From Caldilineales bacterium (lineage in GTDB: Bacteria; Chloroflexota; Anaerolineae; J102), in NCBI GenBank assembly GCA_019695115.1, contig JAIBAP010000005.1, positions 1 through 64,000 on the forward strand: a stretch of 64,000 bases of DNA, written 5' to 3'. A program made the position numbers and the translations under genes. A model generated the notes under the pieces. The model was not told the origin of the DNA. It saw only the letters and a list, made by a program, of their open reading frames with translations, and ran no database searches. Positions within the stretch are counted from its first letter, which is position 1. Each line of letters begins with the position of its first letter. Below, one piece after another: positions 1,271 to 51,830 of the stretch.

Positions 1271-4006
1271 ATGCCTGACGCGTTGTTGGCGACCAAAGTC
1301 AGCTTGCCCATCCTGCGGCGCGTCGTCGTGCCCAGGCAGAAGGTGCTCAGGCGGCTGCAGGCGGGATTCGAGGATGGGCATCTGCTCACCCTGGTTTCGG
1401 CGCCGGCGGGCTATGGCAAAACCACCGCCATCCGCCTGTGGGCCGAGGAGGCCGGCTGCCCCGTGGCCTGGGTCACTCTTGAGAAATCGGACAACGATCT
1501 CAGGCAGTTCCTCACCTACGTACTGGCCGCCCTGCAACAGGTCGAGGCCGATCTCGGCCAGGCCGCGCTGGAAGCGGTCGAGACCAGCGCCGAACTCGAC
1601 TCGCCGCGCGTCCTGCGCCTGCTGATCCACGATCTGCTCGGCCTGGAGCGGCCGCATCTGCTCGTCCTGGAAGAATATCACCTGATCGAAAACGGGGAGA
1701 TCGACCGCTTCCTCGAGGCGCTGCTCAACCAGGCCGTGGCCAACCTGCACCTGGTCATCGCCACCCGCGAGGATCCCGGCCTGCCCCTCAACCGGCTGCG
1801 GGCCAGGAATCAGCTGACCGAGATCCGGGCGGCAGACCTCAGCTTCTCACTCGACGAAGCCGGTGCGTTTTTCGCCACGGTGATGGGGATGCACCTGCCC
1901 CGGCGCGAGCTGGAAATCCTCAAGAACCGCACCGAAGGCTGGGCGGCGGGGCTGCAACTGGCGACCCTGTCGCTGAAAGAGAGCGACGACCCCACCCAAG
2001 CCGTGGAGGCGTTCCGGGGCACGCACCGCCATATTCTCGATTATCTGATCGAAGAGGTCGTGGATAGCCAACCCGAGGCGGTGCGCACCTTCCTGCGCCG
2101 CACCTCCATCCTCGATCAACTCTCCCCCTCTCTCTGCGCCGCTGTCACCGGCCAGCCAGACAGCGGCCAGACCCTGCGCTACCTGGAAGCCAACAACCTC
2201 CTTCTCGTCGCCCTCGATGCCGAGCGCACCTGGTATCGCTATCACGCCCTGTTCGGCGAACTGCTGCGAAACCAGCTCGTGCAGGTCGAGCCGGAAGAGG
2301 CGGCCGCCCTGCACGAGCGCGCCGCCGGCTGGTATCAGGCGCACGGTCTCGTGCAGAAGGCGGTCGAACATGCTTTCCAGTCCGGGAACGGTGAGGCGGC
2401 GTCGCACTTGATCGAGAAAAATGGCCTGCCGATGCTCTACCAGGGCGAAGTTGCGACCGTCGTCGGTTGGTTCGACCGCCTGCCCGAATCGCTTCTGCAC
2501 GCCTCCCCCACGCTGTGCATTGACAAGGCCTGGGCGCTGGCGTTGGTGCAACGCCAGACGCGCACGGCCGAGGTGGAGCGAGCGCTGCAGGCCGCCGCCG
2601 GCGCGCTCAGCCGGGCAGATGCAGATGAGGCGTTGCACCGATGGGTGGCCGGACACGCCGCCAGCATTCGGGCGTATCTTTTGCAGACGCCGGAGTCGGC
2701 GAGCGAAGGGCCGCAGAAGTTGATCGAAATGTCGCAGCACGCACAGCGCCTCCTGCCAGAGGGCGAGCGGGCCATCCGCAGCGTCAATGCGCTGAATATC
2801 GGCCATGCCTATGCCACGCTGGCCGATCTGCCGGCGGCGGAGCGGGCGTTCCAGCAGGCGTTCGTGGAGGGGATGGCCGGGGGCAATTTCTACGCTGCCA
2901 TCTATGGCCCCATCAACCTGGCTGGCCTCGCTCTGGTCAAAGGCCAATTGCAGGACGCCTTGCAGTTGTGCGAGGCGAACATCGTCCGCTTCAACCGGTT
3001 GTTGGCCGGGCAGCGCTTCCCACCCATCGGCGCCCTGCACATCGTCGAAGGCAGCATCCTCCTGGAAGAAAACCGCCTGGCCGAGGCAGAGGAGGAACTG
3101 GCGCACGGCCTCAGCCTCATCCGTTGGACGGGTGAGTACGAGGCCTATGTGCAAGCGCACGCGGCCCTGGCGCGGCTGAGGTGTTCTCACGGCGACCGGG
3201 CAGGGATGTTGGATCACCTGCGCACGCTGGCAGAGACCCGGCCGGAGGTGGCCGGGTATGCGCAGGCGTTGCGCCACCGTTTGTCGGCGCACAGTGGCGC
3301 GCCTGACCGAACCGGGCTCGAAGAGGCGCGGCGCTGGCTGGCGCAGCCGGGCATCCGCTTCGATGGTCTGGCCGATGTCGCCGGCGTCGACCCGCTGCGC
3401 CGCATTCATTTTCAGACCCACCTGTGCGCCGCCCACACGTTGGCCCGGCTGGCGGCGCGCGCCGTCCCGGCCGAGCCGGTGACGAATGCACACGCCTATC
3501 TGGCCCGCCAGCAGAAGTTCGCCGAGACCCACGGGTTGGCCGGCTGGCTGATCGAGATCGGACTGGCGCGGGCGCTGCTCTATCAGGCCGAAGGCAAAAT
3601 CGAGGAGGCGCGGCGCACGCTGCGCCCGGCGTTGGCTGCGGCGGCGCCGCGGGGCTATGTCCGCCTCTTCCTGGACGAGGCCGATCTTCTGCGCCCCTTG
3701 CTGGACGCACCGGCGCTGCGCCGCCAGGACCCCGACCTGTCTGCTTTTGTCCAGCGCCTGCTGGAGGCGATGCCAGGGGCGCCCGCCCGGAGCACGATTG
3801 CCCTGGTGGAGCAGGAGCGGCTGAGTGACCGCGAGCTGGAGGTGTTGAGCCTCCTGGCCGCGGGGCACAGTTACAAGGAGATCGGTGAGCAGCTCTTCCT
3901 CAGCCTCAACACCGTGCAGTTCCATGTCAAGAACGTTTACGGTAAGTTGGCGGTCAACAAGCGGGGACACGCCATCGAGAAGGCCAGGGCGATGGACCTG
4001 ATCTGA
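1271..4006 (+). CDS. MalT-like LuxR-family ATP-dependent transcriptional regulator (LAL)
   Basis: The 911-residue protein has the architecture of large ATP-binding LuxR (LAL/MalT) regulators. A STAND-type NTPase has its Walker A at residues about 42-52 (LVSAPAGYGKT) and a probable Walker B in 'HLLVLEEYHLI'. A winged-helix segment and a long alpha-helical TPR-like region fill the middle. A LuxR-type HTH occupies the last 65 residues, with LSDRELEVLSLLAAGHS and a recognition helix around LSLNTVQFHVKNVYGKL. Family members assemble on ligand and ATP binding and activate nearby operons; the ligand is unknown. It lies 3 nt after the ABM-like gene and just before a strong terminator, so those two genes look like one unit. 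Confidence 0.93.
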   Translation: MPDALLATKVSLPILRRVVVPRQKVLRRLQAGFEDGHLLTLVSAPAGYGKTTAIRLWAEEAGCPVAWVTLEKSDNDLRQFLTYVLAALQQVEADLGQAALEAVETSAELDSPRVLRLLIHDLLGLERPHLLVLEEYHLIENGEIDRFLEALLNQAVANLHLVIATREDPGLPLNRLRARNQLTEIRAADLSFSLDEAGAFFATVMGMHLPRRELEILKNRTEGWAAGLQLATLSLKESDDPTQAVEAFRGTHRHILDYLIEEVVDSQPEAVRTFLRRTSILDQLSPSLCAAVTGQPDSGQTLRYLEANNLLLVALDAERTWYRYHALFGELLRNQLVQVEPEEAAALHERAAGWYQAHGLVQKAVEHAFQSGNGEAASHLIEKNGLPMLYQGEVATVVGWFDRLPESLLHASPTLCIDKAWALALVQRQTRTAEVERALQAAAGALSRADADEALHRWVAGHAASIRAYLLQTPESASEGPQKLIEMSQHAQRLLPEGERAIRSVNALNIGHAYATLADLPAAERAFQQAFVEGMAGGNFYAAIYGPINLAGLALVKGQLQDALQLCEANIVRFNRLLAGQRFPPIGALHIVEGSILLEENRLAEAEEELAHGLSLIRWTGEYEAYVQAHAALARLRCSHGDRAGMLDHLRTLAETRPEVAGYAQALRHRLSAHSGAPDRTGLEEARRWLAQPGIRFDGLADVAGVDPLRRIHFQTHLCAAHTLARLAARAVPAEPVTNAHAYLARQQKFAETHGLAGWLIEIGLARALLYQAEGKIEEARRTLRPALAAAAPRGYVRLFLDEADLLRPLLDAPALRRQDPDLSAFVQRLLEAMPGAPARSTIALVEQERLSDRELEVLSLLAAGHSYKEIGEQLFLSLNTVQFHVKNVYGKLAVNKRGHAIEKARAMDLI

Positions 4007-4063
4007 GTCCGGCCACAAGCCCCACATTCTCGCTGGTCCGAGAACCACATCATTGCCTGCGCG

Positions 4064-4094
4064 AGAACCACATGAATATGTGGTTCTTTTTTTT
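4064..4094 (+). terminator. Rho-independent terminator
   Basis: AGAACCACAT at 4064-4073 pairs perfectly with ATGTGGTTCT at 4078-4087 across a 4-nt loop and runs into a T-tract (4088-4094). A direct repeat of the left arm (CGAGAACCACAT) sits at 4039-4050 and could compete for the right arm. Confidence 0.92.
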
Positions 4095-4250
4095 GTGCGC
4101 GCTCATAGAATGCAGATCAAATAGTCCCGCCAGACGCAACGAAGGCGGGACAAGCCTCGAAGACAAACCGTCCTTTCATCCATTCTTCTGGCGCGACAGC
4201 GTCCTGCTGCCGGCCACAAACAACACCGTATCACGAAGGAGATGCAAACC

Positions 4251-4967
4251 ATGACCACCGGGCGTTCTTTGATCGTTCTCATCCTTTTCATCACCGTCCT
4301 GCTCAGCGGCTGCAATCCCACGCTGAAGGTGGGCGCCTTGCAGACCGAGTCGCAGACGGTCGCACGGGGCGACGCCGAATCGGTGCGGGTCGAGATCAAC
4401 TTTGGCGCCGGCGACCTGCATGTGCAGAGCGGCGCCGAGCAGCTGATGCAAGCCGATTTCACCTACAACGTCGCTCGTCTGCAGCCGCAAGTGCAGTACA
4501 CGGCCGGCACGCTTTCTGTGCGGCAGCCCGAGGTTCCGGGGATGCCAACCCTGGGCAGCATCACCGACTTCCGCAACGAGTGGAACCTGCGCCTGTCCGA
4601 CCAGACGCCGCTGGACATGCGGTTGGACATCGGGGCCGGGAACAGCGATCTGCAGCTGGCTGGCCTGCCGTTGACCCGGCTCGATGTCAAGCTGGGCGCA
4701 GGGACGAGCACGCTCGACCTGAACGGCGCCTGGGCGCACGACCTGGCCGTGGCCGTGGACAGCGGCGCCGCCAACATCACCGTGCAACTGCCCAAAGATG
4801 TGGGTGTGCGCGTCGAGGTGGAAGCCGGCCCCACCGTCGTCGACGCTCCGGGCCTGACCAAGAACGGCAATGTCTACACCAACGCCGCCTTCGGCGTCGC
4901 GGATGTGACGCTGAACATCAAGATGGACGCCGGCATCGGCTGGATCAATCTGGATGTCGTCGAGTAG
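4251..4967 (+). CDS. DUF4097-like (toast-rack) lipoprotein
   Basis: The 238-residue product has a lipoprotein signal: a hydrophobic core and lipobox VLLSGC, with the lipidated Cys near residue 19. The mature part is Gly/Asp/Leu-rich beta repeat sequence (INFGAGDLHVQSG, DIGAGNSDLQLAG, KLGAGTSTLDLNG, DSGAANITVQL). This is the turn pattern of the right-handed beta-prism found in DUF4097 and LiaF-type proteins. Such proteins sit at the envelope, often near stress or two-component genes; no precise function can be assigned. The ATG at 4251 is preferred to 4242 because AAGGAG (4236-4241) is then correctly spaced. A 12-bp hairpin separates it from the next gene. Confidence 0.8.
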   Translation: MTTGRSLIVLILFITVLLSGCNPTLKVGALQTESQTVARGDAESVRVEINFGAGDLHVQSGAEQLMQADFTYNVARLQPQVQYTAGTLSVRQPEVPGMPTLGSITDFRNEWNLRLSDQTPLDMRLDIGAGNSDLQLAGLPLTRLDVKLGAGTSTLDLNGAWAHDLAVAVDSGAANITVQLPKDVGVRVEVEAGPTVVDAPGLTKNGNVYTNAAFGVADVTLNIKMDAGIGWINLDVVE

Positions 4968-39588: not shown

Positions 39589-40431
39589 TCAAGGTGCGCG
39601 GCCATTCAACACCAGCGGCAGCAAAACCACGTCGGCCCAGCGGTCGCGCAGGGTGATATCGATCCCCGTCGCCGCGCTGCCCGTGCGGATGGCCACCGCA
39701 TCCGCTTCGCCGTCGCCGGTGGGATCGTACCAGCCAAATGGCTCGCCCGGTTGCGGCGGCCCCATGTCGGCGCCGAGGTCGATGAAAGCGCCAACGCGAT
39801 AGTCGCCGTCGGGTACATGGGCGATGGTGTAGACGCCCGTCCCGGCGATGACGGCGGCATGCGCCGGCGGCCCTGGATCGCCCTGGCGCCCGGCAAAGAT
39901 GACGATGTTGTGCGTCCCCGTAATCGCGCCGGTGTAGGCGATGCGGCCGCTGATGCTGCCCGCCGCTGGCGGCGATGGGTCGGTCAGGAGGATGTCCACC
40001 GCCGTAATGGCAGCGCCGGCGGTGACGGTCAGCGGGTTGAGCGCATAGCCGCCCATGGGGTCGATGGCCGGGTCGGGCGCGCCGCCAGAGTCATCGGCGT
40101 CCATGCCGGCGTAGAGGTGGTAAACCCCGGCGGTGACGGTGAGGGTGTAGGGGCCGGGGCCGCTGCGCGTCGTGGCGAGGGCCGGCGGGCCGCCCAGCGT
40201 GGTGGTGAAAGCGCCGACCCAGACCATGTGCGTGCCTGTCACCGCGCCGGCGTAGGTGATGTCGCCGCTGATCAGGGCCAGAGAAGCGGGCCGACCGGCC
40301 TCGGCCGGCGGCGAGGAGGGCCTCGCCGCCACCACCGCGACCAACAGGGCGAGCAGGAAGCCGGTGCAGGCCAGCCACAACAGCAGGCGCTTGCCGGCGG
40401 CGTTGGGGAAGGGAGAGAAGGCTTCGTTCAT
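39589..40431 (-). CDS. surface protein with two beta-sandwich repeats
   Basis: The 280-residue product has an N-terminal hydrophobic segment ([20 protein letters not shown]) and two copies of a roughly 100-residue unit that begins ISG[DR]I[TA]Y[TA]GA[VI]TGTH. Each contains a Y-x-[LI] strand and a DPMGGY or [11 protein letters not shown] loop. The pattern resembles carboxypeptidase-regulatory or prealbumin-like beta-sandwiches; I do not recognise a named family with certainty. The C-terminus is [13 protein letters not shown], a version of the LPL motif seen on its neighbours. The start overlaps the metalloprotease stop by 4 bp (ATGA). Confidence 0.75.
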
Positions 40432-43400
40432 GGCCGGCTTTTGTTGAGCAGCGGCAGCCAGACCGGATGGCCGACGAAGAAGGTGACGCTGGCAGTCCCG
40501 GCCATACCGTCGCTGTCGGTGACGGCGGCGGTGACGGTGTGCGGGCCGGCGGCAGGGGCGGGCAGGATCACTTCGGCGCCGCTGCCCAGGCCGCCAGCGA
40601 TGTCATCGCTCCAATGCAGGGCCGAGCCAGGCAGCAGGCCATCCTCGCGGTCGAAGGCGAAGCCGATCATCGCCAGCGGCTGGCCGGGCGGGAAGAACTG
40701 GTGGGGTTCGGGCTGGGAGATGACCACGCCGGGCGGTTTGCGGGCGACGGTGAAGAGGCCGCTCTCGCCCTGGCCGCTGCGCATGCCGTCGTTGGCCAGC
40801 ACACGGATGCGGGCCTGGCCGGCCGCCCCGGCCAGTGTCTCCAACTCGATGTCGTAGCCTGTCCCGGCCAGCCCGGTGGCCAGGTTGACCCAGGTGGCCC
40901 CGCCGTCGCGGCTGAACATGACCACGTAAGTCAGGGCGTCGCCGTCCTCGTCCTGGGCCGACCAACGGATCGCTCCCAGGCCGGTCGCCGGCCAGATCGC
41001 CCCGGCGGTGGGGCTGGTCACGGTCACGGTGGGCGCGTGTGCGCTCAGCACCCGGCTGAAGAGCACCGTATCGCCCTCTCTGATGGCAATGCGGGCGGCG
41101 GCAGGCCGGTCGGGCAGCAGCTGGCGGAAGGGATGGGCTTCCTCCTCCTCATTTTCATGCCGCTCCTCGTGGATGGGGTCGAAACCGCGGCTGAAGAGCA
41201 CGGTCCCGGCCGCGTCCTGGAGTTCGATGGTGTAGCGGCCGGCGTCGCTGGCCGCTGCGGGCGCGGGCCGGGCGGTGATGCGGTAGATGGGGCGCACGGT
41301 CAGGGTCGGGCTGAAGCGCCCGGCCACCAGCCAGAAGTGCTCAGGATCGCCCGCGTGCGGGCCGAGGCTGCCGGGAACCGCGGGCGAGGCCGCCGAACAG
41401 AAATCGTAGTTGTCGTACAGGGCCAGATAGTTGTGGGGCGAGATCCATTTGCCCAGGTCGAAGCCGTAGGACATCATGTCGTGGTAGTGGAGGGCGTCGG
41501 CCGCGGCCAGGCGCCTGGCAAACATGTTCCAGGTGTCGAAGCCGACGACGCCGATGCCGCCGTGGGGATAGGGCCACTCCTCCCAACCGCCGCCATCGCC
41601 CTCCCCGTGGTCGTTGCTGGCGTGTTGGCGACCCAGGTTGTGACCGATCTCGTGGATGGCGGTGTCGCGGCGGCCCTGGCGGCCCACGGCCACGCAGTCA
41701 TCCACGCGGGCGACGCCGCTCCAGGTTCCGAGCGGGTTGGCGGCGTCCACGGGGCCGAAGGGGACAGTGGTGCTGATGACGCCATAGTAGTGGCCCTCGA
41801 CCCAGCCGCAGGCCCAGAAATCATCCTCGTAGCAGACGAAGCGGTCGGCCAGGTCATCCAGGAGGTCGCTGCGGCCCTGGGCGGTGGTGAGGTTGTGGTC
41901 GGTGCGCAGGATGCGTTCGGCGTCGAGATGCACGGCCACGTCTTGCTCGTCGATGGGGTAGACCTTCTTGATTTTCTCGAACAGGTCGGTGCTGCTGACA
42001 GGGATGGCGTCGGCGTTGCCGCGGGTGTAGCGGATGCGGACGGGGTAGATTTGCAGGTAGTCGTGTTCGTGGAAGATGAGGCCGCGCTCGGTGACGCTGT
42101 TGTTGCCATTGCAGGCCGGGCATTCCTGGGCGCGGGCGGTGACGACGGCGTAGAGATCGATGCCGTCGCCGCGGGCGGCGTCGGTCCAGTCGTCGGGCAG
42201 CAGGAAATTGGCCGTGAGCTCGGCATAGTTGCGCAGTTCGGGCAGTCCCAACCCCCAGATCACGCGGCGGATGGTTGTCACCAACGGCCCGCCGGGCAGA
42301 ACCTCGCCCGTGCCGTTGTCCCACCCCACCAGCGACACCTCGATGTCTTGCAGGTGTTCGTACATGGCGTCGCCGGGGCCGATCTTGTTCAGATAAACAT
42401 AGACGCGAGCCACGGTCAGCTTGTGCGCCACCAGCGGGATGCTGTTGTCGCCCTCTTCGCAGCTGTCCAGGTTGGCGGGGTCGCCAAAGCACTGCGTGAC
42501 CTGAGTGACTTCGATGCCGGCGGCCTGCAAATCCATGTTGGACGGCTGGCGGGTGGGTGTGGGCGTGGGCGAGGGCGTGCGCGGGTAGACGTAGCCGAAG
42601 TCGGCCCCGACCACATGCTGGCCCGGCTGCGGCTGCACCAGCAGGGGGTTGCAGCAGGTGGTGCGCACCAGCGGCGCCGGCACGGTGCTCTCGTCCACGG
42701 TCACCTCATAGAGCACATCGCCCTCCAGGTCGGCGAAGAGATAGTAGCCCTCGTCGTCGCTGAACCGGGTGGCGAGGAGGTCATCGCCCCGGAACAGGTC
42801 GACGCGGACGCGGTCGATGCCATCTTCGCCAGGGTCCTGCTGCTCGTCTTCGTCCTCGTCCTCCCACACCCGGCCGGCGATGGAGGCGCGCGGGGGCGGG
42901 CCGAAGCCGAAGTCGACGTCGCGTTTGTCCTCGCCGGGCTGGGGAACTGTGGTTTGCGGGTTGCAGCAGGTGGTGAGGGTGTAGCCCGCGGGCAGGGATT
43001 GCTCCTCCACCTCCACCTGGTAGCTTTGGCTCCCCTGCAAGTGGCGGTCGAAAACGTAGCGGCCGGCGGCGTCGGTGAGGGCGGTGGCGAGGATGGCGTT
43101 CTGGCGGCGCAGGCGCAAGAAGACCTGGGGGATGCCCGGTTCTTCGCTGTCCTGCATCCCGTCCCGGTCGGCGTCCCGCCAGACGCGGCCGCCGAGGGTG
43201 GCGAGGGCGGGGGTGGGGGTCGGGGTTCCGGTAATCGCCTGGGTGGGTGTGAACGTCGGCGTCCGCGTCGGGGTGGGCGTGAACGTCGGCGTCCGCGTCG
43301 GGGTCGGCGTGAGCGTCGGCGTCCGGGTTGGCGTCCGAGTCGGCGTGGGCGTGAGCGTCGGCGTCCGGGTCGGCGTCCAGGTCGGCGATAGGGTCGGTGT

Positions 43401-44159
43401 GGGTGTGGAGGTCGCGGTACGGGTCGGCGTAAAGGTAAGTGTGGGCGTGGGGGTCGCAGTGCGGGTTGGCGTCGGCGTGCGGGTCGGCGTCGGAGTACGG
43501 GTCGGAGTACGGGTCGGCGTCGGCGTGCTGGTGGGCGTGGTGTAGTCGATCACCAGCCGCGGGCGGTTCGCAGCCAGGCTGCTCTCGCGGCTGCCAAAGC
43601 CCCGCCAACCGATCGTGCTCTCGTTCTTGCTCAGCAAGGCCAGGCCCTGGTTGGGCGACCCGTTCACCCAGGTCTGGGCCAGGGTGGTCACGTCCCAGGT
43701 GTAGTAGGCCGCTGTCTTGCCCACGCCCAGGACGTTGTTGGCCCCGGTGTAGCCCGGCTGGTTGTTCCAAGTCGCGGCCATCTCGTTCCAGGCGGCGTCG
43801 ATGCGTTTCAGTTCCACATCCAGCACCGCCGGCGCGGCCGAGGTTTGCACGAGATAGGCCTCGAAGCGGGCCTGGGTGACCGTGGCCCCGGCGGGGATGC
43901 TGCTGAGGTCGAAGCGGAACAGCGCCCGGCCCACGGCGCTGGGCGATTGGCTGCCAACGTACAGCACAACGTCGGCGCCGTAGTTCGTGGCCGGCGATGC
44001 CGAATAGACGTAGGCGTCGGCGACCGCGGGCAGGGTGATGCTGGCGGCGGGCGCGGCGACGGCGGGCGCGGCGACGGCGGGCGCGGCGACGGCGCGACGA
44101 GAAAGCGGCGCTGCCAGCAGCAGGGCCGCAAGAACAAGCAAGACGATATGATGTTTCAT
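40428..44159 (-). CDS. secreted metzincin-type metalloprotease with DNRLRE and SdrD-B domains
   Basis: The 1243-residue protein has a signal peptide; a DNRLRE-type beta domain (about 45-215; [25 protein letters not shown]); a Thr/Pro linker of over 100 residues; and two Cna/SdrD-B-like domains (about 318-530), each with a TCCNP motif. The protease domain follows, with zinc site [11 protein letters not shown] (first His near 836) and Met-turn MMSYG near 895, the metzincin arrangement. C-terminal Ig/cadherin-like domains come last ([28 protein letters not shown]), ending [13 protein letters not shown]. It probably degrades extracellular protein. I chose the ATG at 44159 because GGAGG stands 6 nt upstream and the signal peptide starts there; the longer start at 44207 overlaps that site. 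Confidence 0.9.
43215..43545 (-). repeat. short-period repeat encoding the Thr/Pro linker
   Basis: Imperfect 6- to 12-nt units on the minus strand (variants of ACCCCGACGCCG) encode TPTxTPT runs. It is coding low-complexity sequence inside the metalloprotease gene. Similar shorter runs occur at about 37685-37935 and 59505-59605. Confidence 0.85.
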
Positions 44160-44309
44160 GGTGGGCCTCCATTCGCCAGAAGCAGGGCGATCGATCAGCC
44201 CTTCCATTCAAGCACAAAACCGCTGCGCCAGGGTATCACTTTGCGATACAAAATAGGATGAATTTTGGCAAGGCCCGGCCTGGGGGTCGGCGCGAAGACC
44301 CCTCGAGAG

Positions 44310-44400
44310 GGCGGATTACTGGGATTGGCGGATTGGAGGGGATGGGCGGATTACTGGGATGAGCGGATTACTTCATGTGGGCGGATTTACGGGGATGGGT
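44310..44400. repeat. 17-nt degenerate repeat tract, copy A
   Basis: On the minus strand, units such as ATCCGCCAATCCCAGTA and ATCCGCCCATCCCCTCC repeat about five times. This is the same unit family as the tract at 51583-51830, and both tracts read in the direction of the flanking genes. Confidence 0.8.
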
Positions 44401-44431: not shown

Positions 44432-45652
44432 CTACAACCTGGCCGGGATGTCGAAAACCCTGGCCCCCAGGTTCATCCCCAACCGCATCGCCGCCCGGGT
44501 GGCGCCCTCGCCCAGCCAGTAGCGCTCGAACATCACCTTCGCCCCATGCCAAAGCCGGCCGGCGCGAGGCAGGGGCACGTCCGGGTCGGGTTCGGCATAG
44601 AAATCGCCGCTGGCAAAACCGGCCTGGCCGCCGCCCATCTCGATCCAACAGTAGCCGGCGCCGTCGAACTCGGCCCGCGCCCCGCTCCCCTGGATCTCGG
44701 CGGCGATGCGCGTGGCCACCGTCTCGGCCTGCGCATGGGCAAAGACGCCCGCCTTGGGCAAAGGTTTGCCGTTGGAAAGTGTGATCGTGGCCGCATCGCC
44801 GATGACATAGACCGACTCGAAACGGGTCTGGAGGGTGCGCTTGTCTACCGGCGCCCAACCAGCCTCGTTGGCCAGCCCGGCTGCCCGCAACACCGCCGGC
44901 GGCCGATGGGGAGGGACGGCCGCCAGAAAGTCGAACGGCTCGCGCGAACCATCGGCAAAGACCAGTTCCCGCGCCTCGGCGTCGAGGCGCTGCACCTGCC
45001 GTTTGGCGTGAAAGGCGATGCCGCGGGCGCTCATCATCTGCACCACCGCCTCGCCCATGGCCGGGCCGGCCACGGGCATGGGCAGCGGCTCCGGTGTGAA
45101 CACCTCCACCCGGCTGCCGCGCTGGAGCCGGCGACGTCGCAGCGCCTCTGCCAGCAGCATGGCGGCCTCGTAGGGGGCAGCGGGGCACTTGTAGGGCAGC
45201 GACGAAACCAGGACAACGGCGCGGCCGCCCTCGAAACGCGCCAGCGCCTGCCACAGGCCGGCGGCGCCTTCCGGCGCAAAGAAGTTGTGCGCGGCTTCGC
45301 CGTAGCCGGGCATGGCCGCCGGCGCCAGCTCAGCGCCCAACGCCACCACCAGATAGTCGTAGGCCAGTTCGCGGTCACCGGCCCGGATGCGCCCTTGCTC
45401 CGGCTCGATGGCCTCGACCTCAGCCCGCACCACCTCCACGCCCGGACGCAGCAGACGCCGCAGGTCTTTGCTGATCTGGTCGGGCCGGCGCTGGCCCACC
45501 ATCACCCACAAGAGCGAGGGGGTGAAGACGTATTCGCCCCGCCTATCCACCACGATGATGCGGTGTGGCGCGGCCAACTGCCTTCGCAGGGCATTGGCTG
45601 CGACGATGCCGCCGACGCCGCCGCCCAAAATCAGGATCGTTTTAGCGGTCAT
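44432..45652 (-). CDS. SQR/NDH-2-like FAD-dependent pyridine nucleotide-disulfide oxidoreductase
   Basis: The 406-residue flavoprotein opens with an FAD-binding Rossmann motif (ILILGGGVGGIVAANAL) and has the second FAD signature near the C-terminus (VYVIGDAATI). Conserved YKCPAAPYEAAM holds a Cys comparable to that of sulfide:quinone oxidoreductase-like proteins. Such enzymes transfer electrons from sulfide or NADH to quinone at the membrane. A full set of SQR catalytic cysteines is not evident, so the substrate stays open. It ends the cluster that includes a DsrE-family sulfur protein, which favours sulfur chemistry. GGAGG precedes the ATG. Confidence 0.87.
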   Translation of the reverse strand: MTAKTILILGGGVGGIVAANALRRQLAAPHRIIVVDRRGEYVFTPSLLWVMVGQRRPDQISKDLRRLLRPGVEVVRAEVEAIEPEQGRIRAGDRELAYDYLVVALGAELAPAAMPGYGEAAHNFFAPEGAAGLWQALARFEGGRAVVLVSSLPYKCPAAPYEAAMLLAEALRRRRLQRGSRVEVFTPEPLPMPVAGPAMGEAVVQMMSARGIAFHAKRQVQRLDAEARELVFADGSREPFDFLAAVPPHRPPAVLRAAGLANEAGWAPVDKRTLQTRFESVYVIGDAATITLSNGKPLPKAGVFAHAQAETVATRIAAEIQGSGARAEFDGAGYCWIEMGGGQAGFASGDFYAEPDPDVPLPRAGRLWHGAKVMFERYWLGEGATRAAMRLGMNLGARVFDIPARL

Positions 45653-45689: not shown

Positions 45690-46493
45690 TCAATCAGAAC
45701 TCAATCGGGTGAGAGCAGTAGCAGCGAGGGCGATGACCTGCAAGGCGTCATGGCTGCCGCCGTCGGCGCCTTTTTCGAAATCCCCCTCGGCCACGGCCAT
45801 CTGATTGGTGATATGGGCAAAGCATACCACATCCCGGTTCCGGGCCTGGGCAAAGGCATAGAGCGCCGCCGCCTCCATCTCCACGCCCAGGATGCCCTGG
45901 CTGCGAGCAAAGTCGATGGCTGCCGCCGTCTCGCGAAAGGGTGCATCCGTCGTCCAGGCGGCCCCGATTTGCACCGGCACAGGTGCGCCGGCAAAGGCGC
46001 CCTGCAACTGCTGCTGCAGTCCAGACCGGAGGTGGCTGTAGGCGGCTGGCGGCAGATAGTGGTAGCTGGCGCCTTCGTCACGCAGCGCCCGTTCGATGAG
46101 GACGAAGTAGGGTGGGCGACCGGCCGGTGTGATCTGGCCGGCCGAGGTGATGCTGATGAGCAGCCGGCAGCCGGAGGCAAACAACTCTTCGGCCACGAGG
46201 ACGGCAAAGGAGGCGCCGACGGCATAGGGCACGAGGCCGTAATCGCGGCCATCGTGGCAGAAGGCATACAGCCGGGTGTGGTAGCAGGCCCAGTGCGGGT
46301 GTCGCTCCGCCCGGCCGGTGGCGATCAGATGCTCGGTCAGGTCGCCGTCGGGGTCGAGGATGCAGATCGGCGGGATGCCGCCGGGCGGCACGCGACGTTG
46401 TCGCCGGGCCTCGCGCAGGAGATTCTCGACCTCGAACAACGAGGGGGCGTCATAGGCCTTGTGCGCCAGGATGGGCGCTTCCTGCTCCTCCAT
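45690..46493 (-). CDS. nucleoside phosphorylase (uridine phosphorylase-like)
   Basis: The 267-residue product matches the PNP/UDP phosphorylase family: a phosphate-binding Gly-rich stretch (ISITSAGQI), TTDAPFRE, and the nucleoside-binding signature GILGVEMEAAALYAFAQ. It should cleave a nucleoside with phosphate in the cytoplasm for salvage; pyrimidine specificity is a guess from overall pattern. It starts 12 nt after the stop of the read-through DsrE-family frame. Confidence 0.9.
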   Translation of the reverse strand: MEEQEAPILAHKAYDAPSLFEVENLLREARRQRRVPPGGIPPICILDPDGDLTEHLIATGRAERHPHWACYHTRLYAFCHDGRDYGLVPYAVGASFAVLVAEELFASGCRLLISITSAGQITPAGRPPYFVLIERALRDEGASYHYLPPAAYSHLRSGLQQQLQGAFAGAPVPVQIGAAWTTDAPFRETAAAIDFARSQGILGVEMEAAALYAFAQARNRDVVCFAHITNQMAVAEGDFEKGADGGSHDALQVIALAATALTRLSSD

Positions 46494-46505: not shown

Positions 46506-46871
46506 TCAGAACACCAGCACCTGGTCGGCTGCCGCCGTCCACGCCGCCAGCAAGGCCATGTTGCCGGGTTGCACCACCGCGATGAACCACTCTGGCCCGA
46601 GCCCGCGGGCCTCCGAACAGCTCCCTCAGGTGGCCACCTGGCCCTGGCGGGCGATGGACTGCACCATGCGCTCGATGTTGTAGTAGCCATTGGGCGTCTT
46701 CTGGCCGGCCAGGGCGCAGTTGACGCCGTCGCCGACCAGGAAGACCTGCACCTTTGCCTCCGGCGACTTGGCCAGGTTCATGGCCAGACGCAGGGCATTG
46801 TAGGGGCGCTCGTTTCCGTAAGGCGCATCGTTGATGATGAAAAGATAGGTTCGTTCGCCGTCATTAGTCAT
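46506..46871 (-). CDS. DsrE/DsrF-family protein with in-frame TGA at a conserved Cys position (candidate selenoprotein)
   Basis: MTNDGERTYLFIINDAPYGN starts a typical DsrE/YchN-like fold with LVGDGVNCALAGQKTP and GYYNIERMVQSIARQG, well known in this family. The frame meets TGA at codon 82 (46628-46626), then continues in the same frame as GSCSEARGLG and, at the end, LLAAWTAAADQVLVF, the family's usual ending, to a TGA at 46506-46508. Relatives have CGxC where this gene reads TGA-GSC. So the product is either a 121-residue selenoprotein with a U-x-x-C motif or a gene broken by one base change (or misread). A compact hairpin follows the TGA. AGGAG sits 7 nt before the ATG. Without read-through the protein would stop at 81 residues. 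Confidence 0.75.
46594..46611 (-). promoter_or_regulatory. putative bacterial SECIS-like hairpin
   Basis: Starting 15 nt after the TGA, GGCCCG pairs with CGGGCC (6 GC pairs) around the loop CGGGCU. The loop begins 21 nt after the TGA and has G in its second position, within the spacing and loop rules known for bacterial SECIS elements. In GC-rich DNA such a stem can arise by chance. Confidence 0.4.
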
Positions 46872-51567: not shown

Positions 51568-51582
51568 GCAGCCGACTGCCTC

Positions 51583-51830
51583 CGCCCCATCCGCCCATCC
51601 CAGCCATCCGCCCATCTCCCCCATCCGCCCATCCCAGTAATCCGCCCATCTCCCCCCCATCCGCCCATCTCCCCCCAATCCGCCCATCCCAGCCATCCGC
51701 CCATCTCCCCAATCCGCCCATCCCAGTAATCCGCCCATCTCCCCAATCCGCCCATCTCCCCAATCCGCCCATCTCCCCAATCCGCCCATCTCCCCAATCC
51801 GCCCATCCCAGTAATCCGCCCATCCCCCCA
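51583..51830. repeat. 17-nt degenerate repeat tract, copy B
   Basis: About 14 units of CCGCCCAT followed by either CCCAG(TA/CC)AT or CTCCCCAAT, some with two extra C. It fills the kynU-MFS gap. Copy A is at 44310-44400 near the SQR-like gene. Confidence 0.93.

Follow-up and report, generated by a model that had tools for sequence, protein, structure and literature searches.

Structure of the locus

The window analyzed here, a stretch of 64,000 nucleotides, carries a DsrE-like gene, a phosphorylase-like gene and a gene encoding an SQR-like flavoprotein in this order (Table 1). The reading frame of the DsrE gene involves a TGA at codon 82, continues for 39 more codons and finishes with the C-terminal end that is usual for the family (AAWTAAADQVLVF). 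The residues surrounding this TGA read U82-G-S-C85-SEARG. Both the frame and the U82-x-x-C85 reading had been described in the original prediction, and our analysis reproduced them. The ATG is preceded by the sequence CAGGAG a few nucleotides upstream. A sigma-70-like promoter was sought upstream of the gene and none was found.

Table 1. Location of the DsrE-like gene, its sequence elements and its downstream neighbors in the window
Feature	Position	Strand	Details
DsrE/YchN-like gene (predicted selenoprotein)	46506..46871	minus	121 aa, predicted Sec at codon 82; TGA stop 46508-46506
In-frame TGA, predicted Sec82 of U82-x-x-C85	46626..46628	minus	codon 82 in relatives: TGA 38 loci, Cys 73, TAA/TAG 0
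Predicted bacterial SECIS hairpin	46594..46611	minus	6 bp GC stem, loop CGGGCU; comparative data and published model
Phosphorylase-superfamily (PNP_UDP_1) gene	45690..46493	minus	PF01048, E 1.2e-25; directly downstream of the DsrE gene
SQR-like FAD oxidoreductase (Pyr_redox_2/FCSD_central)	44432..45652	minus	domain matches; candidate partner

The PF02635 model matched residues 9-121 across the TGA (E 2.7e-19, 69.9 bits with a cut-off of 22.7), and thus the gene combines the two features by which DsrE-like selenoproteins are defined (PF02635, UxxC). When the NCBIfam models were applied to the protein, none of them scored above its own cut-off and, for this reason, standard annotation is likely to call the gene truncated. 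An assignment as TusD or TusC equivalog was rejected, since the scores were far below the cut-offs (30.3 vs. 89.25 bits for TIGR03012/TusD, 24 vs. 94 bits for TusC). An AlphaFold model calculated from 33 homologs reached a pLDDT of 94, and its best matches in the PDB were YchN (TM 0.87/0.90), DsrEFH and TusBCD. E. coli YchN (1jx7) aligned collinearly with the DsrE protein from end to end and carries a Cys at the TGA position.

Elsewhere in the window, we observed a tandem array at 51581-51830 (17-bp unit TCCCCCCAATCCGCCCA, about 14.5 copies), which is located between a kynureninase-like and an MFS-like gene. Similar units (GGGCGGATTACTGGGAT) are present at 44309-44399. The region 40428-44207 encodes a large protein that looks secreted and has low-complexity linkers rich in Thr and Pro, which are encoded by short-period repeats (43254-43526).

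Codon 82 and the selenocysteine machinery

Translation of a TGA as selenocysteine involves a dedicated machinery, and the genome to which the window belongs (G000, 5.99 Mb, with a completeness of 100% as judged from marker counts) was searched for its four components, as the original prediction had suggested. Here, we found a tRNA-Sec with a UCA anticodon (73 bits), SelA (553 bits), SelB (307 bits, or 335 bits when a C-terminal part in the same frame was included) and SelD (353 bits), the gene of which itself involves one in-frame TGA. Most of the relatives tested carry the same set. A strong tRNA-Sec was detected in 27 of the 32 genomes with the Sec form and in 10 of the 23 genomes carrying only the Cys form (p=0.003). 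The five Sec-form genomes in which no strong tRNA-Sec was seen are possibly incomplete MAGs.

To define the identity of codon 82 in related genes, homologs were collected in searches that did not use this codon as selection criterion. In the initial set of relatives, TGA was present at codon 82 (or its decayed equivalent) in four homologs that are intact or nearly so, and Cys in two. The wider search yielded TGA in 38 distinct loci (plus one decayed copy) and TGC or TGT in 73, which confirmed the anticipated Cys at this position, and neither TAA nor TAG was found at codon 82 in any of these TGA and Cys loci. All plasmid relatives of the gene were less than 60% identical. In a tree of 110 sequences from these searches, which is based on an alignment of 122 columns and has weak deep forks, 36 Sec sequences formed a single clade (100/97) and almost all of them are named Chloroflexota. 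A few sequences of the tree belong to MAGs that are assigned by name to other phyla (L059, L060, L064), and these may be binning errors or transfers. The remaining Sec sequence (L116, 4001-4342) originates from Zixibacteria RBG-1, a genome with a strong tRNA-Sec (70 bits). It has its TGA at codon 82 as well but is placed within a Cys clade, and two changes of the Sec/Cys label are therefore required on the tree. As judged from these sequences, the Chloroflexota Sec clade and the Zixibacteria Sec form apparently arose independently. Two further loci deserve mention. In one Anaerolinea-like MAG (G470), a Sec form coexists with a Cys form of a different clade (L071 and L109). In the Sec-DsrE gene of Anaerolineae bacterium UTCFX1 (L070, about 3986-4351), an extra stop is present about eight codons ahead of the usual end, with decay or an assembly error as possible causes.

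When the window's gene was compared with the two relatives closest to it (84% and 79% identity), dN/dS values of 0.17 and 0.12 were obtained outside the SECIS region, and the codons past the TGA were conserved as well. According to these comparisons, the protein is under purifying selection across the TGA. Within the same genus, the copy of G001 (L013 1400-1900, G001:C130) is decayed: its start region is out of frame, Cys85 is replaced by Tyr and codon 111 is a TAG, whereas the SECIS hairpin is still perfect. This copy represents a selenoprotein loss in progress and, because of this decay, the gene must be considered dispensable in the genus, although it appears to be functional in the window's genome.

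The original prediction had named a TGC/TGT to TGA mutation or a base-call error as alternative explanation, and it had considered decayed relatives as a potential argument against a selenoprotein. A nonsense mutation or sequencing error that converted a Cys gene into a pseudogene would be compatible with the state of the G001 copy, and the one same-genus relative in which we found the gene did turn out to carry a decayed copy. The window's gene, however, is intact and exhibits low dN/dS before as well as after the TGA, the genome carries the Sec machinery and the hairpin described below is maintained by covariation. A base-call error is ruled out, since 38 loci of independent assemblies show TGA at this very codon, with conserved coding sequence downstream. 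For these reasons, we consider a pseudogene extremely improbable.

The hairpin downstream of the TGA

The original prediction had placed a GC hairpin 15 nt after the TGA, and such a structure (GGCCCG-CGGGCU-CGGGCC) does start at the 15th nucleotide past this codon. The published bSECIS model asks for a loop of 3-9 nt, a stem of 4-16 bp, a G at loop position 1 or 2, a spacing of 16-37 nt and an MFE of -7.5 or lower (PMC13188914). The hairpin complies with all of these constraints, with a stem of 6 bp, a loop of 6 nt that has its G at position 2, a spacing of 20 nt between TGA and loop, and -10.8 kcal/mol. When our own implementation of the model was applied to the window, which has a GC content of 66%, 213 of the 1632 TGA trinucleotides (13%) passed. 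Because of this background the hairpin alone is weak evidence, and we rejected it as proof on its own.

Its significance comes from the comparative data. The model was passed by 32 of the 39 TGA genes, always with a spacing of 20 or 21, but only by 9 of the 73 Cys genes, in which the spacings were mostly scattered. In the TGA genes, a mean of 5.59 of the 6 pairs was formed, compared with mostly 0-3 in the Cys genes. Synonymous-codon nulls yielded 3.35 ± 0.16 pairs with gene-wide codon usage and 3.98 ± 0.15 with regional codons, so that pairing in the TGA genes was 10 SD or more above the level of these shuffles. When the helix was slid by one column, pairing dropped from 95% to 52-57%, and over all slid helices it ranged between 9% and 57%. 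We also counted 19 double-sided changes vs. 7.1 ± 1.8 in shuffled data, a difference that is inflated by the kinship of the sequences, and therefore the weight rests on the synonymous-codon and Cys-gene controls. Two covarying pairs account for most of these 19 cells (C-G to U-A 11 times, G-C to A-U 6 times). Inspection of the Zixibacteria gene by eye suggested a possible shifted 5-bp hairpin (CUCGU-GGUCU-ACGAG), which did not pass the energy threshold.

UGA is the leakiest of the stop codons and, in principle, a short product that ends by design at codon 81 could be intended, or ordinary suppression could place some other amino acid at the UGA. A truncated product would lack the catalytic Cys pair and the C-terminal strand, both of which are under selection. 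Suppression explains neither why Cys is the sole alternative at codon 82 nor why a covarying hairpin is nearly confined to the TGA genes, and we regard both scenarios as very improbable. Taken together, the presence of the Sec machinery, the UGA/Cys exchange at codon 82, the conserved SECIS hairpin and the selection past the TGA support the candidate selenoprotein proposed originally and, on this comparative basis, TGA82 is almost certainly read as selenocysteine. SelB together with Sec-tRNA-Sec would decode UGA82, assisted by the hairpin, the loop of which is located 20 nt past this codon.

Neighboring genes and relation to known systems

The original prediction had described an SQR-like flavoprotein as neighbor of the DsrE gene. 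This gene is indeed part of the locus but it is not the immediate neighbor, since the nucleoside-phosphorylase-like gene is located in between. No match to the latter was found near the other Sec loci, and it must be considered a feature of this locus. SQR-like genes of the same group adjoin Sec-DsrE within 3 kb in 8 of the 38 loci, the window's included. Genes for ArsR or ArsR-rhodanese proteins are present within 3 kb in 15 of the 38 Sec loci and often end just upstream of Sec-DsrE, although no ArsR gene is found next to the window's own DsrE gene; rhodanese-metallo-beta-lactamase genes occur in 3 of the 38. For the Cys-form loci, which come from many phyla, the corresponding numbers within 3 kb are 50/73 (ArsR type) and 33/73 (SQR type, where the search also takes distant homologs of about 30% identity in several loci). 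As flank lengths vary among the loci, all these fractions are lower bounds and do not provide a fair comparison of Sec and Cys forms. Within the available flanks, about half of the Sec loci have none of the named sulfur neighbors. An obligate partnership with the orthologs of the window's SQR-like protein was not supported, since three genomes (G003, G005, G449) carry Sec-DsrE without a close SQR ortholog. No close ortholog of the window's SQR-like gene was found in G001.

The fold and the neighborhood provide the support for a function as sulfane-sulfur carrier. Sec82-x-x-Cys85 would constitute the active site of a small, cytoplasmic and probably homo-oligomeric carrier. Sulfane sulfur originating from sulfide oxidation might be taken over as perselenide/persulfide on Sec82 and might then be passed on or be released as H2S via a Sec82-Cys85 selenenylsulfide. 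Since the family adjoins ArsR/ArsR-rhodanese regulators, SQR-like flavoproteins and rhodanese/metallo-beta-lactamase proteins, handling of sulfane sulfur is the likeliest job, and we consider a role of Sec82/Cys85 in sulfide oxidation reasonably probable. A selenoprotein with a different job, a general redox protein acting on thiols, peroxides or metal(loid)s, is the less likely option. UxxC is indeed similar to the redox motif of thioredoxin type, ArsR regulators may respond to metals as well and several Sec loci lack sulfur neighbors, but the fold and the relatives are those of sulfur-relay proteins and the frequencies of ArsR-type and SQR-like neighbors given above argue against it. With regard to the sulfane-sulfur role, we tentatively suggest a more specific scenario, in which Chloroflexota employ a selenium-based carrier that works with an SQR-like flavoprotein via a perselenide relay, and in which Sec took the place of Cys on at least two occasions among YchN-type DsrE proteins of ArsR/rhodanese/SQR loci.

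The SQR-like protein of the window resembles the type III SQR selenoprotein subtype (NF049943) over 362 positions (230 bits). It differs from this subtype in scoring far below the cut-off of 525 bits and in having a frame without TGA, and a reading as second selenoprotein is therefore not supported. The closest solved structure of the DsrE protein is YchN (37% identity, TM 0.87-0.90), which has its Cys-x-x-Cys at the same place, but carries Cys where the DsrE protein would carry Sec. We know of no function assigned to YchN itself, and a literature search on this question yielded nothing specific. TusBCD and DsrEFH have the fold and the superfamily in common with our protein and relay sulfur via a conserved Cys. 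In contrast to our locus, they are encoded by a heterohexamer gene set, which is absent beside the DsrE gene, and the protein scores below the TusD/TusC cut-offs.

DsrE-like selenoproteins have been known since the mid-2000s and the gene described here is a new member of this family. Its published members include a UxxC protein of Desulfovibrio vulgaris, the single species in a 2006 genome survey (PMC1794560), together with two Sargasso Sea sequences (PMC1088965) and 19 sequences ('DsrE 2') of the GOS survey (PMC2398784), which agrees with the metagenome surveys mentioned in the original prediction. The family is also included in recent reviews (PMC9312934, PMC13188914). The portions of this literature available to us make no mention of a Chloroflexota clade, a second origin, a decaying copy or an association with ArsR and SQR. 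Our data add a well-supported Chloroflexota branch to the family, show a second Cys/Sec exchange as well as ongoing loss and, with the sulfide-handling neighbors common to Sec and Cys forms, provide a functional lead. As far as the published descriptions extend, the known members and the gene described here have PF02635, UxxC, Cys homologs and a bacterial SECIS just past the UGA in common, a likeness of family and motif, whereas our gene differs from them in its place in a Chloroflexota branch of 36 sequences.
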